From the NCBI GenBank assembly GCA_022425945.1, contig JAKMEK010000095.1, positions 1 through 51,233 on the forward strand: a stretch of DNA of 51,233 nucleotides. Direction: 5' to 3'. Numbering within the stretch: position 1 is the first letter of the stretch; every line of letters begins with the position of its first letter. This DNA is from Flavobacteriaceae bacterium (GTDB lineage: Bacteria; Bacteroidota; Bacteroidia; Flavobacteriales; Flavobacteriaceae). The notes under the pieces were generated by a model, which ran no database searches, was not told where the DNA came from, and worked only from the letters and a program-made list of their open reading frames with translations. Positions 41,840 to 47,615 of this stretch are shown one piece after another. The position numbers and the translations under genes were made by a program.

Positions 41840-42922
41840 TTATGCTTTCACAATCTGTTCTTGATGATTGATGGATTCTTGATGAATCGCCTTGAACATG
41901 CGCAAGATAAATTCTTCAGACAAACCACGGCTTTCTCCTTCCAAAACCATTTTTCCTAGAATTTCATTCCAACGTTTGTTTTGCAATACAGCAACATTGT
42001 TCTCTTTTTTAAGCTCTCCAATTTCTTCGGCAACTTTCATTCGTTTCCCTAAAGTATCCAAAATGGCTTGATCAGCGATATCTATTTGAGCGCGAAGATT
42101 TTGAAGTGCCGTTTGATAAGAAGCTTCATCAGTCGTAGCTTCACGTATTTTCAAATCATGCATGATTTGCACCAAATTTGATGGCGTCACTTGTTGAGCA
42201 GCATCACTCCAAGCATTATCTGGATCCCAGTGACTTTCAATCATTAGTCCATCAAAATTTAAATCCAAAGCCATTTGACAAGTATCAAAAATCATTTCAC
42301 GGTTTCCAGTAATGTGTGAGGGGTCACAAATCAACGGTAAATCTGGGAATCTATTTTGCACCTCAACAGCAATTTGCCATTCTGGATTGTTTCTGTATTT
42401 CGACTTTCCATAAGCCGAAAATCCACGGTGAATTAGACCTAAGTTTTTAATGTTTGCTGTATACAAACGTTCTACTCCACCTAACCATAGGGCTACATCT
42501 GGATTAACAGGATTTTTCACCAAAACGATCTTGTCTGTACCTTCCAAAGCATCCGCAATTTCCTGAACAATAAATGGACTTACCGTAGAACGGGCACCAA
42601 TCCACAAGATATCGATGTCATGCTCTAACGCTAACTTGACATGATCTTTATTGGCTACTTCAGTCGCCGTTAACATTCCTGTTTCTTCCTTCACGCGTTG
42701 TAACCACTTTAATCCAATGGCTCCTACACCTTCGAACATACCTGGGCGTGTTCTGGGTTTCCAAATTCCAGCACGATATACCGTCACATCAGTATCTTTC
42801 AATTCGTGAGCAATTTTCATAACTTGTTCTTCTGTTTCGGCGCTACAAGGACCACCAATAACTAAGGGATGCGATAGACCGAAGTTGTTCAACCATTCGC
42901 GCATTGCGGGAGTATTCTCCAT
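41840..42922 (-). CDS. Bifunctional DAHP synthase / chorismate mutase
   Basis: Residues 1 to about 260 form a DAHP synthase of the type related to KDO8P synthase (PLVIGGPCSAET, YRAGIWKPRTRP, IGARSTVSPF, KNPVNPDVALWLGG, PLICDPSHITGNR). Residues about 270-355 form an AroQ chorismate mutase (LRAQIDIADQAILDTLGKRMKVAEEIGELKK). DAHP synthase starts the shikimate pathway; chorismate mutase makes prephenate. In such fusions the mutase domain can be the feedback sensor for prephenate. The length of 360 residues fits. It is the last gene of the operon, 2 bp after tyrA. Confidence 0.93.
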   Translation of the reverse strand: MENTPAMREWLNNFGLSHPLVIGGPCSAETEEQVMKIAHELKDTDVTVYRAGIWKPRTRPGMFEGVGAIGLKWLQRVKEETGMLTATEVANKDHVKLALEHDIDILWIGARSTVSPFIVQEIADALEGTDKIVLVKNPVNPDVALWLGGVERLYTANIKNLGLIHRGFSAYGKSKYRNNPEWQIAVEVQNRFPDLPLICDPSHITGNREMIFDTCQMALDLNFDGLMIESHWDPDNAWSDAAQQVTPSNLVQIMHDLKIREATTDEASYQTALQNLRAQIDIADQAILDTLGKRMKVAEEIGELKKENNVAVLQNKRWNEILGKMVLEGESRGLSEEFILRMFKAIHQESINHQEQIVKA

Positions 42923-42924
42923 AA

Positions 42925-43782
42925 CTAATTGTTGTGTTTAATCCCGTTAAGGATTGTTGTTAATTGATTTGTATGTTTCATTTGTTGGTGCAAATCTTCA
43001 ATGTCATCATTTTCTAATTTGCGTTTAAAATTCTCTAAATTCTCAATGTATGAAGATAAAATGTTCAATACATTGTCTTTGTTCTGCTCAAAAATAGGAG
43101 CCCACATGTTTGGGGAACTTTTGGCCAGACGAACGGTTGATTCAAATCCACTTCCAGCTAAATCAAAAATATTTTGTTCATCTTCTTCTTGCTCAAGGAC
43201 TGTTTTTCCGAGCATAAAAGAGCTAATGTGGGAAAGGTGCGAAACATAGGCCATGTGCTTGTCATGCTCATCGGCTTCCATGAAACGGAGGTACATACCC
43301 ATCTGACGAAAACTGGTTTTTGCCCAGCTCAGTAAATCATCTCTTGTTTTTTTGGCTTCACACAAAATTTGTGGCTTTCCGTCAAATAGACCTAAGTGTG
43401 CAGCCTGTGGACCTGAAAATTCAGTTCCAGCAATGGGGTGCGCCGCCAAATACTGATCGCGTTTGGAGTGCTCTTCAACCGCCTTACAGAGCGTTGCCTT
43501 GGTTGAACCTACATCCCACAATAATGCCTCCTCCTTTAATTGATCTAAAAGATGCGGTAGCATGGCCAAACTCTCTTTCACAGGGATACTCAGAATAACA
43601 CGATCGGCTTGGTTGATGTCCGCTATATTTCCTTTCTTGTCGATGATACCAAGTGCAAGTGCTTCGTCCAAATGTGCCTCATTGGTGTCTACTCCAATAA
43701 CTTCAATAGCTGCATCACACTTTTTCAACTCCATGGCCATGGAGCCTCCAATTAATCCGATACCGATAACGTATAGTTTCAT
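42925..43782 (-). CDS. tyrA: Prephenate dehydrogenase
   Basis: TyrA oxidises prephenate to 4-hydroxyphenylpyruvate with NAD(P)+, leading to tyrosine. The Rossmann motif IGIGLIGGSMA is at the N-terminus, LWDVGSTKATLC follows, and the active-site His lies in LAAHPIAGTEFSGPQAA. The helical domain contains HMAYVSHLSHI. No ACT or mutase domain is attached; the mutase activity is supplied by the next gene. The length is 285 residues. It overlaps the upstream aminotransferase by 4 bp. Confidence 0.94.
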   Translation of the reverse strand: MKLYVIGIGLIGGSMAMELKKCDAAIEVIGVDTNEAHLDEALALGIIDKKGNIADINQADRVILSIPVKESLAMLPHLLDQLKEEALLWDVGSTKATLCKAVEEHSKRDQYLAAHPIAGTEFSGPQAAHLGLFDGKPQILCEAKKTRDDLLSWAKTSFRQMGMYLRFMEADEHDKHMAYVSHLSHISSFMLGKTVLEQEEDEQNIFDLAGSGFESTVRLAKSSPNMWAPIFEQNKDNVLNILSSYIENLENFKRKLENDDIEDLHQQMKHTNQLTTILNGIKHNN

Positions 43783-44933
43783 GCGTTGATTCGATTAATG
43801 GCTGTTTGTATTTGATCTTCCGTCACACAAAGTGAAAAGCGAATATAACCTTCTCCCTGACTCCCGAAAATTGTTCCAGGGGTTATGAAGATGTCTTTTT
43901 CGTATAAAACCTTATCAATAAAGGCTTCAGATGAGAGCGCGCTGTCGTTTAGTTTGGCCCAAACAAACATCCCTACACTATTCTTATCTGGAGTGGCTTG
44001 CATTAAACCTGCCAATTCCTCTACCAATGCGCGTCTTCTTTTGTAGACTGCATTGAGTTCGTCGAACCAGTCATTGGGCGCATTGAGCGCAGCAATAGCT
44101 CCTTGCTGAATCCCATAGAACATGCCCGAATCCATATTACTTTTAACCTTCAAAACCGATTGAATATTCGCTTGATTTCCTGCCAAAATCCCTACACGCC
44201 AACCTGCCATGTTAAATGACTTACTAAGGGAATTCAACTCCATACAAACATCTGATGCGCCGGGTAGAGACAAAATACTTTGCGGATGATCATTGAGAAT
44301 AAAGCTATAAGGGTTATCGTTTATTAGCAGTACCTCATTTTCTTTAGCCCATTTGATTAAACGGGTAAAGCTTGCTGTTTGCGCATTGGCACCTGTTGGC
44401 ATATGCGGATAATTCAACCACATTAGCTTGATCTTAGCGGTATCCATGGACTCAAGCTTTGCAAAATCGGGTTGCCAATCATTGTTGGCTGCTAGGTCAT
44501 AAAAAACTGGACTTGCTTCAACCATTTGTGTAACCGAGTTGTAGGTGGGATACCCTGGATTAGGAATAAGCACCTCATCGCCTTTATTCAAAAAGGCAAG
44601 AGAAATGTGCATGATGCCTTCTTTGGAGCCCATTAGAGGAAGAATATCCGAGGCAGGGTCTAGCGCTACATCATAGTTTCGTTTGTAAAAAGCTGCCATT
44701 GCTTCACGTAAGGCCGGTAGACCTTGATAGCTTTGGTACATATGCGCCTTTGGATGCGATAGTCCTTGCTGTAACGCTTCAACCACAGATGGATGAGGAG
44801 GTAAATCTGGGCTTCCAATTCCCATATTCAATACAGGTTTTCCTGCCTGAACTAGCCCAGCTACTTCTCTTAATTTCTTAGAGAAATAATATTCTTTTAC
44901 ACTTTCAAGACGGGTTGCAGTGGTCATTTTCAT
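43779..44933 (-). CDS. Aminotransferase, probably acting on aromatic amino acids
   Basis: A fold-type I PLP enzyme of 384 residues (MGIGSPDLPPHPSV, PLMGSKEGIMHI, LNYPHMPTGA, LINDNPYSFIL, PLP lysine in LNSLSKSFNMAGWRVG). On sequence alone it resembles the LL-diaminopimelate/aspartate group. Its position between pheA and tyrA, overlapping each by 4 bp, points to transamination of phenylpyruvate and hydroxyphenylpyruvate. That is inference from context. Met1 at 44933 or Met3 may be the true start. Confidence 0.88.
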   Translation of the reverse strand: MKMTTATRLESVKEYYFSKKLREVAGLVQAGKPVLNMGIGSPDLPPHPSVVEALQQGLSHPKAHMYQSYQGLPALREAMAAFYKRNYDVALDPASDILPLMGSKEGIMHISLAFLNKGDEVLIPNPGYPTYNSVTQMVEASPVFYDLAANNDWQPDFAKLESMDTAKIKLMWLNYPHMPTGANAQTASFTRLIKWAKENEVLLINDNPYSFILNDHPQSILSLPGASDVCMELNSLSKSFNMAGWRVGILAGNQANIQSVLKVKSNMDSGMFYGIQQGAIAALNAPNDWFDELNAVYKRRRALVEELAGLMQATPDKNSVGMFVWAKLNDSALSSEAFIDKVLYEKDIFITPGTIFGSQGEGYIRFSLCVTEDQIQTAINRINA

Positions 44934-45757
44934 TTTTTGGCATTGGTGTATTCACCTAAGATTTTGAATTCTAAGGCCATAATTGATAATATTTTACGTG
45001 CTTTCTCATAGTATTGAAACTGATCAAAGGTAACGTCTACAAAAAACGCATATTTCCCTGGGGTTTCTATGACTGGCAGGGATTGAATCTTGGTGAGGTT
45101 TAACAAACAATCGCTCATTACATTGAGCACTGCGGCTAAACTTCCACGTTGGTGATCCAAAATAATTTTTAACGAAGCCTTGTTAATTTTTTCTTTCTCG
45201 ACTGTGCCATTGCTTTTTTGGACAATCACAAAGCGCGTTACATTATCTTGAATGGTTTGTATGGAATGTGCTAGAATAGTCAAATCATAGATTGATGCAG
45301 CTTGTTTTGGTGCAATTGCGCCAATTCCCTTTCTATTTTCAGTAGCTATTGACCGAGCAACGTCTGCTGTGTCGGCAGCCTCTACGAGACGGATTTGTGG
45401 ATAAGCACGGAAAAACTCCTTGCATTGCAGTAAAGCCATTGGATGTGAATGCACTTCGGTTAAATCTTCAATGGTTTCCCCTTCCAATGCCATCAGGTTG
45501 TGATGAATGGTGAGGTTGTATTCTCCCACGATCGACAAATCATTTTGATCAATTAAAGCATAGTTAGGGATAATGGATCCAGCAATTGAGTTTTCGAGAG
45601 CCATGACAGCGTGCGATGCATCAGCAGAGATAACAGCTGTCACCAGAGTGTCAAAACTCAAGCACTCGAGTAATTCAACTTCCCGATGATAGTAATCCAT
45701 TGCCACAGCATGGTGAAATGAACCTTTAATTCCTTGTATCGCTATTTTTGTTTCCAT
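44930..45757 (-). CDS. pheA: Prephenate dehydratase
   Basis: PheA converts prephenate to phenylpyruvate for phenylalanine. It has IAIQGIKGSFHHAVA at the N-terminus, ALENSIAGSI, a mid-chain LALLQC-like segment, and the catalytic T-R-F in NVTRFVIVQ, then an ACT domain (about 190-270, LKIILDHQRGSLAAVLNV) that binds phenylalanine for feedback inhibition. There is no mutase domain. The frame runs to 45787, but ATG 45757 (METKIAIQG) avoids the terminator hairpin and gives 275 residues. It is first in the operon, behind the leader described at 45768-45939. Confidence 0.95.
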   Translation of the reverse strand: METKIAIQGIKGSFHHAVAMDYYHREVELLECLSFDTLVTAVISADASHAVMALENSIAGSIIPNYALIDQNDLSIVGEYNLTIHHNLMALEGETIEDLTEVHSHPMALLQCKEFFRAYPQIRLVEAADTADVARSIATENRKGIGAIAPKQAASIYDLTILAHSIQTIQDNVTRFVIVQKSNGTVEKEKINKASLKIILDHQRGSLAAVLNVMSDCLLNLTKIQSLPVIETPGKYAFFVDVTFDQFQYYEKARKILSIMALEFKILGEYTNAKK

Positions 45758-45767
45758 AGTATGCCCC

Positions 45768-45800
45768 AAAAAAAAAGTCCCGAACAAATGTCAGGACTTT
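45768..45800 (-). terminator. Attenuator terminator in the pheA leader
   Basis: On the minus strand AAAGTCC (45800-45794) and GGACTTT (45780-45774) form a 7-bp stem around a 13-nt loop, followed by an unbroken run of nine U in the RNA (45776-45768). It lies 10 bp before the pheA ATG with no gene end between it and the promoter, so its only evident job is to stop transcription inside the leader. Its 5' arm (45793-45800) is also perfectly complementary to 45826-45833 in the leader ORF, which forms the competing antiterminator. Confidence 0.88.
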
Positions 45801-45821
45801 AACTATCGTTGCGTTGATATA

Positions 45822-45890
45822 TTACAAAGTCCTTTCTACCTCATTGAAGAAGTAAAAAAAAGTGTTGCGATATATAAACGAGTTGTTCAT
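45822..45890 (-). CDS. Phe/Tyr-rich leader peptide of the pheA operon
   Basis: A 22-codon ORF encoding MNNSFIYRNTFFYFFNEVER followed by TL. Codons 11-15 read TTT TTT TAC TTC TTC; in total five Phe and two Tyr. It starts 19 bp after the -7 box of a strong promoter and stops 22 nt before the terminator hairpin. RNA of codons 11-14 (45849-45860) can pair with 45831-45842 (12 bp with G-U pairs), and 45826-45833 can instead pair with the terminator arm 45793-45800 (8 bp). This is the architecture of pheL/trpL-type attenuation: stalling at Phe or Tyr codons would free the antiterminator. The gene is inferred from sequence only; it is too short for homology. Confidence 0.85.
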   Translation of the reverse strand: MNNSFIYRNTFFYFFNEVERTL

Positions 45891-45908
45891 TTTTGTTCAA
45901 ATAGGTTA

Positions 45909-45939
45909 CAAACATAAGCCTCACTTGGAAATAAACAAA
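45909..45939 (-). promoter_or_regulatory. Promoter of the aromatic amino acid operon
   Basis: On the minus strand TTTG (45936-45939), exactly 19 nt and TATGTTTG (45909-45916) match the Bacteroidetes promoter. The predicted transcript starts near 45902, about 12 nt before the leader peptide ATG and about 145 nt before pheA. Confidence 0.75.
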
Positions 45940-46031
45940 CATTTCTGTTGTTTTTTTTTTCATGGATTGGAACTTATATGTTATTTTCTCTTAAAAAAGG
46001 GCTAATTTAATGGTCTATTGAAGATCAACTT

Positions 46032-47615
46032 ATGAAATCATCTCTATTTTCCCTGTTGCTGCTAACGGTTTTACTTAGCTGCAATGAAAATGAACAGAAG
46101 ACAACAGCGCAATTAAACGATTTTAATTACCTAGAGGCAAACATTACAACACTTACTACTGGATACGAGACTGGTGAATTTAGTATTGTTGACGTCACTC
46201 AGGCCTATCTAGATCGGATAGAAGCCATTGATAAAAATGGGCCAAATCTGCAATCAATCATAGAAATCAACCCAGATGCATTAACTATTGCTAGAGAATT
46301 GGATGCAGAATTCGCAAAAGGTAAAAAGCGTGGACCCTTACACGGTATTCCCATTGTACTAAAAGACAATATTGACACCCACGACAAGATGTCAACTACC
46401 GCAGGTTCTCGAGCATTAAAAAACTCAAAACCACTTCAAGACAGTGAAGTAGCAAAAAAACTAAGAGCCGCTGGAGCAATTATATTAGCGAAAGCCAATT
46501 TGAGTGAATGGGCCAACTTTCGAGGACAGAACTCTTCTAGCGGTTGGAGTGGTATAAATGGTCAAACGAAAAATCCTTATGTATTGACCCGTAATCCTTG
46601 TGGATCTAGTGCAGGCTCTGGAGCAGCTGTTTCAGCCAATCTTACCGTTTTAGCGATTGGCACAGAAACCAACGGATCCATTGTATGCCCGTCGAATGCC
46701 AACGGAATTGTAGGAATTAAACCTACGGTTGGACTCATCAGTCGCTCCGGAATCATCCCTATTTCGTTTACCCAAGATACCGCTGGACCCATGGCTCGCA
46801 CACTTACTGATGCTGTGTTAACCCTCGGCGCTTTGACTGGTGTAGATGATAAAGACAGTAAAACATTAGCCAGTAAAGAACATGCATTGACAGATTACTC
46901 ACCTTTTCTAAAGCTTGAAGGTGTTCAAGGAAAACGCATTGCATTGTACACTGCCCCCCTAGGAGAAAATGCAGAGGTAGATAGCCTTGTCCGCAAGTCG
47001 GTTAGAACATTAAAAAACTTGGGCGCGGAAATCATTGAAATTGATGCCATTACCCCTCGAGGAACAGGACAACATTCCTTTCAAGTAATGCTGCACGAAT
47101 ACAAAGATGGACTAAATACCTACTTTGCTTCGCTTGGAGAAAATGCTCCCATTAAAAATTTAGATGAGCTAATTGCTTTCAACGAACAAGATTCCATTGA
47201 ATTAAAGTACTATAATCAAGCCTATCTAAAAATGGCCAACGAAAAGGAAGGATTGGAAAGCGAGGCTTATCAAACAGCATTAGAAAATTTGATCCGCATG
47301 AGTCAACAAGAAGGGATTGATCGCATCATGAACGAGCACAATCTGGATGCTATCATTGCGCCAACAGGGAGTCCAGCTTGGAGTACCGATTGGCTCAATG
47401 GCGACAACTATCACCTAGGAAGTTCCTCTCCAGCTGCTTGGTCGGGCTACCCAAATATCACCGTTCCAATGGGGAATATACACGGCTTACCAGTGGGTCT
47501 TTCCTTTTTCGGAAGAGCCTGGAGCGAACCAATACTAATTGAAATCGCCTTTGGCTTTGAACAAAACACAAACGCCAGAATCACCCCAACTTTTAGAGCA
47601 AACGACGAGGAATAA
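46032..47615 (+). CDS. Amidase-signature family lipoprotein
   Basis: A 527-residue enzyme with a lipoprotein signal (lipobox VLLSC, Cys17), so it is exported and anchored. The amidase signature domain has the catalytic Ser-Ser-Lys triad: Lys in PIVLKDNIDT, Ser in the CGSSAGSGAAVS loop and the nucleophile Ser in GTETNGSIVCPS. GatA shares this fold, but GatA is cytoplasmic and lacks a signal, so this is not the tRNA amidotransferase. Substrates may be amides or short peptides outside the membrane. Its stop overlaps the start of the next gene by one base (TAATG). Confidence 0.88.
   Translation: MKSSLFSLLLLTVLLSCNENEQKTTAQLNDFNYLEANITTLTTGYETGEFSIVDVTQAYLDRIEAIDKNGPNLQSIIEINPDALTIARELDAEFAKGKKRGPLHGIPIVLKDNIDTHDKMSTTAGSRALKNSKPLQDSEVAKKLRAAGAIILAKANLSEWANFRGQNSSSGWSGINGQTKNPYVLTRNPCGSSAGSGAAVSANLTVLAIGTETNGSIVCPSNANGIVGIKPTVGLISRSGIIPISFTQDTAGPMARTLTDAVLTLGALTGVDDKDSKTLASKEHALTDYSPFLKLEGVQGKRIALYTAPLGENAEVDSLVRKSVRTLKNLGAEIIEIDAITPRGTGQHSFQVMLHEYKDGLNTYFASLGENAPIKNLDELIAFNEQDSIELKYYNQAYLKMANEKEGLESEAYQTALENLIRMSQQEGIDRIMNEHNLDAIIAPTGSPAWSTDWLNGDNYHLGSSSPAAWSGYPNITVPMGNIHGLPVGLSFFGRAWSEPILIEIAFGFEQNTNARITPTFRANDEE

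Follow-up and report, generated by a model that had tools for sequence, protein, structure and literature searches.

The window, a stretch of 51,233 nucleotides from a Flavobacteriaceae bacterium, carries on its minus strand an operon for the synthesis of aromatic amino acids. Its first gene is pheA, encoding prephenate dehydratase (44930-45757; Pfam PF00800, 183.7 bits), which is followed by a class I/II aminotransferase (43779-44933; Pfam PF00155), tyrA, encoding prephenate dehydrogenase (42925-43782; NCBIfam NF006307 above the cut-off, and Pfam PF02153), and a DAHP synthase fused to chorismate mutase (41840-42922; Pfam PF00793 and PF01817). This gene set indicates that the operon produces Phe as well as Tyr and also covers the opening step of the pathway they share.

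Upstream of pheA, positions 45939-45757 of the minus strand contain the full set of parts of an attenuator, lying where a preliminary description of this DNA had placed them. Reading the sequence identified a promoter, TTTG-N19-TATGTTTG (45909-45939), which we take to be of the Bacteroidota -33/-7 type, and a leader peptide ORF of 22 codons, MNNSFIYRNTFFYFFNEVERTL (45822-45890; ATG at 45890, TAA ending at 45822), which has no Shine-Dalgarno site. Codons 11-15 of this ORF (45846-45860), the regulatory codons, read Phe-Phe-Tyr-Phe-Phe. An intrinsic terminator hairpin made of arms 3 and 4 was called by the terminator scan (45774-45800; -11.5 kcal/mol) together with a run of nine T (45768-45776), the first three of which are paired in the stem. 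The run ends at 45768, 10 nt upstream of pheA, whose ATG is at 45757, and 64 nt separate this ATG from the leader stop codon. The promoter, leader ORF, codon run and nine-T terminator had all been claimed in the preliminary description and were all recovered here.

The leader RNA can form three stems. In the fold of the leader up to arm 3, stem 1:2 has 13 pairs (-21.0 kcal/mol), formed between arm 1 (45849-45861), which lies within the regulatory codons and was placed by RNA folds and by the pairing of own versus swapped arms, and its 3' side (45830-45842), placed by RNA folds. In the pairing analysis, arm 2, AGGACTTTG (45833-45825), abuts the leader stop codon and pairs with arm 3, TAAAGTCCT (45801-45793), to give the antiterminator 2:3; this stem had been described before with 8 pairs, and its presence was borne out with 9. 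Arm 3 can instead pair with arm 4 through 45794-45800. Folding of the 136-nt leader gives -37.6 kcal/mol, compared to a mean of -19.6 for shuffled sequences (z -5.9; 0/200 shuffles were as good), and the leader terminator was the single site called in a terminator scan of 45700-46060, where 0.2 would be expected.

These parts, and the conservation, co-variation and geometry described below, are visible in the sequences themselves. We interpret the unit as a ribosome-mediated transcription attenuator of the pheA-aminotransferase-tyrA-DAHP synthase/chorismate mutase operon, probably sensing charged tRNA-Phe and tRNA-Tyr together, and put the probability of this reading at roughly 0.9. Transcription would start from the promoter and the leader would be translated without a Shine-Dalgarno site. 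When charged tRNA-Phe and tRNA-Tyr are both plentiful, the leading ribosome would reach the leader stop codon and cover arm 2, leaving arm 3 to pair with arm 4, and RNA polymerase would terminate at around 45768. With either tRNA uncharged, the ribosome would stall within the Phe/Tyr run with arm 2 free, and 2:3 would form before arm 4 is synthesised, allowing transcription to enter pheA. Such a response to Phe and Tyr would depend on kinetic coupling between ribosome and polymerase.

To follow the element in other genomes, a unit was required to have an ORF 14-40 codons long, in which five or more codons out of ten encode Phe or Tyr, and a terminator of -8 kcal/mol or lower starting -5 to 90 nt past the ORF stop. 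When the 277-nt intergenic region of the window was dinucleotide-shuffled, 1/3000 sequences passed this detection criterion, and 0/3000 did when an antiterminator of -11 kcal/mol or lower was also required. The unit was present in 55 of the 56 related pheA regions, all collected in one PheA scan of genome contigs and counted in addition to the window, with a single miss (L049); three named Flavobacterium species (L044, L047, L052) have it. A promoter of the form TTTG-N18-20-TAnnTTTG was found at most 80 nt from the leader start in 32/56 leaders, window included, the mean count in base shuffles being 0.02. In a class- and order-wide sample, 31/54 pheA regions had the unit and 23 failed this strict rule. 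It was seen in 0/373 control regions, taken from the same sequences in front of other long ORFs, which were mechanically called on both strands (at least 120 aa, some not genes) and from which pheA regions showing a known unit had been removed before the count, while unit-less pheA regions could stay.

The misses group by family, with 0/6 in f2, 0/4 in f13 and 0/4 in f77, the last having genomes of 0.6 Mb. Among the strict misses, L063 and L074 have an aromatic ORF with no terminator called, L069, L080 and L082 have a terminator but no ORF that meets the rule, and G002 and G059 would pass a looser rule in which Phe, Tyr or Trp is counted and 12-42 codons are allowed. The looser rule was used for nine further genomes, and with these the tally reaches 38/63 genomes and 20/29 sampled families of class Bacteroidia, the base being 64 genomes with a pheA match besides the window's own, less one partial match (G188). 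A phylum-wide sample added three genomes of the window's family, all with an aromatic ORF and terminator, and one class member with an aromatic ORF and no terminator called. Outside the class, the phylum-level sample gave 77 genomes with a pheA match. Of the 44 that were scanned, one (G223, locus L227) had a Phe/Tyr-rich ORF and terminator upstream of pheA; for 11 of these 44, the domain match begins over 150 nt into the open frame, and the scanned stretch may be intragenic. That the L227 unit is an attenuator outside the class is doubtful, because its best 2:3 partner sits within the codon run.

In the course of these scans, a prephenate dehydratase match was found in only 39/149 genomes of the class sample, compared to 102/118 in the phylum-wide sample. 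Synthesis of Phe via prephenate dehydratase may often be missing in class Bacteroidia.

Codon patterns point to translation of the leader ORF. Across the 56 near leaders, window included, Phe and Tyr account for a fraction of 0.67 in frame 0 and of 0.19 in either of the other frames. Pairwise comparison of 24 distinct leaders of 22 codons shows differences that, over codons 5-15, rise from 0.153 and 0.248 at the first and second codon positions to 0.388 at the third, and that are nearly flat (0.358, 0.345 and 0.413) over codons 16-22, inside which arm 2 lies; codons 12-14 of these leaders are Phe and Tyr only. A Shine-Dalgarno-like 4-mer was found upstream of 1/56 leaders. An A at -3, reported to favour initiation in F. 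johnsoniae (PMC6847099), is frequent (0.68 of the 56 leaders).

Both Phe and Tyr are present in 86/87 leaders, which supports the mixed Phe/Tyr sensing put forward in the preliminary description; the exception is G170. We consider it improbable that the attenuator is ribosome-mediated but effectively Phe-only, with Tyr codons merely tolerated as TAY and TTY are one base apart and both fit arm 1. Phe is somewhat commoner than Tyr (means of 4.6 and 3.8 per near leader) and the enterobacterial pheA leader, which serves as the reference, senses Phe only, both of which would agree with such a reading, but it sits poorly with the retention of both amino acids in nearly every leader, with leaders in which a single Phe codon stands beside six or seven Tyr codons (L023, L024, L054, L057) and with tyrA as the third gene of the operon. 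The G170 units, which have no Tyr in a genome that shows no tyrA, also argue against it. Sensing of Trp as a third amino acid was considered and rejected, with no enrichment among the leaders: one Trp codon occurs in 15/56 near and 8/31 wider leaders, never two, and Trp makes up 1.2% and 1.1% of their residues, respectively.

Units can also be stacked. In G170 (L156), the ~480 nt before pheA hold three leader-plus-terminator units in series, all with Phe and without Tyr codons, and in its operon the aminotransferase is followed by DAHP synthase with tyrA absent between them; a PF02153 search of this genome, which is 83% complete, found no tyrA. Two units in series were found upstream of pheA in G142 (L137), G058 (L158) and G111 (L165). 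In the family of G170, pheA was found in one of two genomes, G170 itself, and gave no second Tyr-less case. A strict link between Tyr codons and tyrA was considered and rejected. Several genomes that keep Tyr codons showed no tyrA after pheA by phmmer; four of these Tyr-keeping genomes (G139, G032, G073, G107) have a weaker PF02153 match ~3 kb downstream of pheA, and G083 and G111, with no PF02153 match, and G192, with a sub-threshold match only, keep Tyr codons too. These last three run counter to strict tracking, and only G170 supports it.

Co-variation of the stems was assessed with an alignment-free comparison of own and swapped arms in 80 distinct units out of the 87 (10,000 permutations), rather than by counting covarying pairs, because a MAFFT alignment moves arm 2 between lineages. 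Own arms paired better than swapped arms in all three stems: -12.97 against -9.11 kcal/mol for 2:3, -13.61 against -9.86 for 1:2 and -15.30 against -10.08 for 3:4, with 0/10,000 permutations reaching the observed value in each case. The advantage in 2:3 and 1:2 held within the 49 near units and the 31 wide units taken separately, and the units contain 64 distinct 2:3 cores. With the unit in 55/56 related regions and arms that co-vary, the conservation of ORF and alternative stems in relatives, on which the preliminary description had made its reading depend, is in keeping with that reading.

The geometry was examined with a simple footprint model in which the ribosome spans -17 to +12 about the A-site codon. 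With a ribosome stalled at one or more Phe/Tyr codons, arm 2 is free in 87/87 units, and a ribosome at the stop codon overlaps arm 2 by at least 4 nt in 84/87, the three failures being L084, L106 and L109; the two positions therefore favour opposite stems, with both conditions holding, in 84/87 units. The predicted probability of nascent 2:3 has a median of 0.92 with a stalled ribosome, 0.00 with the ribosome at the stop and 0.73 with no ribosome, and exceeds 0.5 in 87/87, 4/87 and 56/87 units, respectively. In the model, the switch that holds robustly is the covering of arm 2 by a ribosome at the stop codon. Stem 1:2 appears to be a weak protector, because nascent 2:3 exceeds 0.5 without a ribosome in those 56 units (predicted at 0.84 in the window), and its role is the weakest part of the case. 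The overlap between stem 1:2 and arm 2 of 2:3 is only 4 nt in the window, so that the two can nearly coexist and there is no strict exclusion. Of the three-stem switch claimed at the outset, the opposing effects of stalling and of reaching the stop codon hold up in the model. When full-length RNA is taken at equilibrium, the terminator prevails in most units even if the ribosome is stalled (median 0.94; in the window, terminator 0.36 against 0.56 for 2:3), and timing must therefore decide.

A structure this strong (z -5.9) with a terminator would also suit a metabolite- or protein-sensing RNA switch, such as a riboswitch, a T-box or the target of an RNA-binding protein, overlapping a short ORF by chance. 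We regard this as very unlikely: Rfam 15 gave no match at gathering score across the whole window, T-box and riboswitch families included, no T-box appeared even in the loose match list, the only protein-binding leader in that list, PyrR, scored 17.5 bits against 54, and the aromatic codons are enriched in a single frame whose third positions are the most variable. It is equally improbable that the leader ORF, though conserved and upstream of pheA, encodes a small peptide with a function of its own, or raises pheA translation through reinitiation, while the terminator sets only a basal level, given that the leader peptides are alike in aromatic content more than in sequence, that the leader stop and pheA ATG are so far apart in the window and that arm 2 co-varies with arm 3.

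The attenuator we propose resembles the enterobacterial pheA leader (pheL), a Phe-only system which has a leader peptide, alternative 2:3 and 3:4 stems and a terminator before pheA, in all of these parts. It differs in pairing Phe with Tyr, in being without a Shine-Dalgarno site and in preceding an operon that includes tyrA and DAHP synthase. The Rfam model of the Phe leader (RF01859) aligns end to end over 45769-45891, but it scores 17.7 bits (E 1.1), where the gathering score is 55, and stands amid other chance matches, so that the window unit is not a member of this family. Bivalent leader peptides are found in enterobacterial thrL (Thr/Ile) and ilvL (Ile/Val/Leu). Like these, the window leader would sense more than one product of its operon; it differs in combining Phe with Tyr, and in belonging to a phylum described as lacking Shine-Dalgarno sites (PMC6847099).

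Among the literature matches listed, no paper describing a mixed Phe/Tyr leader and no dedicated study of ribosome-polymerase coupling in Bacteroidota, a subject that the preliminary description called little studied, was found. A comparative survey by Lopatovskaya et al. (2010) may include Bacteroidetes. The element is not wholly new, as it was flagged earlier, in general terms, in F. psychrophilum (PMC9723704). That 2021 paper reports a conserved structured 5' element upstream of pheA, the same gene in the same bacterial family as the window unit, notes that the pheA and hisG 5' elements occur in other Flavobacteriaceae genera with no Rfam hits, and sees 'strong clues' that amino-acid operons are preceded by leader peptide attenuation (PMC9723704). 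Its section on 5' cis-regulatory RNAs names no sensed amino acids, stems or spread beyond the family. In B. thetaiotaomicron, short ORFs reminiscent of leader peptides are mentioned (PMC7366714). The present analysis adds how far the element extends within class Bacteroidia, its combination of Phe with Tyr, and the units in tandem.

Leaders with terminators also precede other amino-acid genes. The hisG gene of the window's own genome (L188, G000:C22) has a His-containing leader, MKKNTLHTHHFTFRSNES, with a terminator, comparable to hisL-type attenuators and differing from the pheA unit in amino acid and operon, and such a leader with a terminator was found at 11/11 hisG loci, L185 among them. 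The trpE gene of the same genome (L248, G000:C28) has a Trp-Trp leader, MKTRNNSTNWWNE, with a strong terminator, and a Trp-Trp leader with a terminator was found at 8/8 trpE loci examined of 13 listed, including L244. No good antiterminator partner was found in two trp units of the window's own genus (-4.7 and -4.4 kcal/mol) or in L242 (-3.1 kcal/mol), and a good one was found in L250 (-10.5 kcal/mol); the L248 leader is without a good partner and may follow a different rule. In L188, L187 and L184 (his) and in L248 and L243 (trp), just 5-8 nt separate the leader ATG from the TATATTTG box before it, compared to 12-20 nt in pheA leaders (39/56 with a box). Because of this short distance, these his and trp leader mRNAs may be nearly leaderless.

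On balance, we favour the view that Bacteroidia possess their own wide-spread leader-peptide attenuators (pheA/tyrA, his and trp), which would imply tight ribosome-polymerase coupling at operon starts, the aromatic attenuator being bivalent, stackable two- to threefold and able to lose its Tyr codons along with tyrA. Stalling of a ribosome can attenuate transcription only where the first ribosome stays close behind RNA polymerase. A co-varying attenuator in 20/29 sampled families would be evolutionary evidence that coupling in the class is sufficiently tight, and the interest of the element lies in this spread over a class that initiates without Shine-Dalgarno sites, as well as in its tandem forms. 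The attenuator could serve as a natural reporter for coupling and as a Phe/Tyr-responsive control element for flavobacterial genetics, and the units provide a starting set for an RNA family absent from Rfam 15.

For branched-chain amino acids, no terminator was called upstream of ilvD in 8/9 regions examined of 11 listed, own genome included. In G150 (L261), the region upstream of ilvD has an Ile/Leu/Val-rich ORF, MRVNNVILSIIILLCQL, with a terminator, and is a possible branched-chain attenuator. Upstream of thrA, inspected in 7 genomes, L281, L282 and L284 have Thr/Ile-rich ORFs without a good terminator, and in L279 (own genome) and L280 a terminator precedes the ORF; in none of these five was a terminator called after the ORF. 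All five have short ORFs with Thr-Pro at or near the end, lying over a recurring ACCCC...GGGGT palindrome, and could possibly represent a Thr leader with another output.
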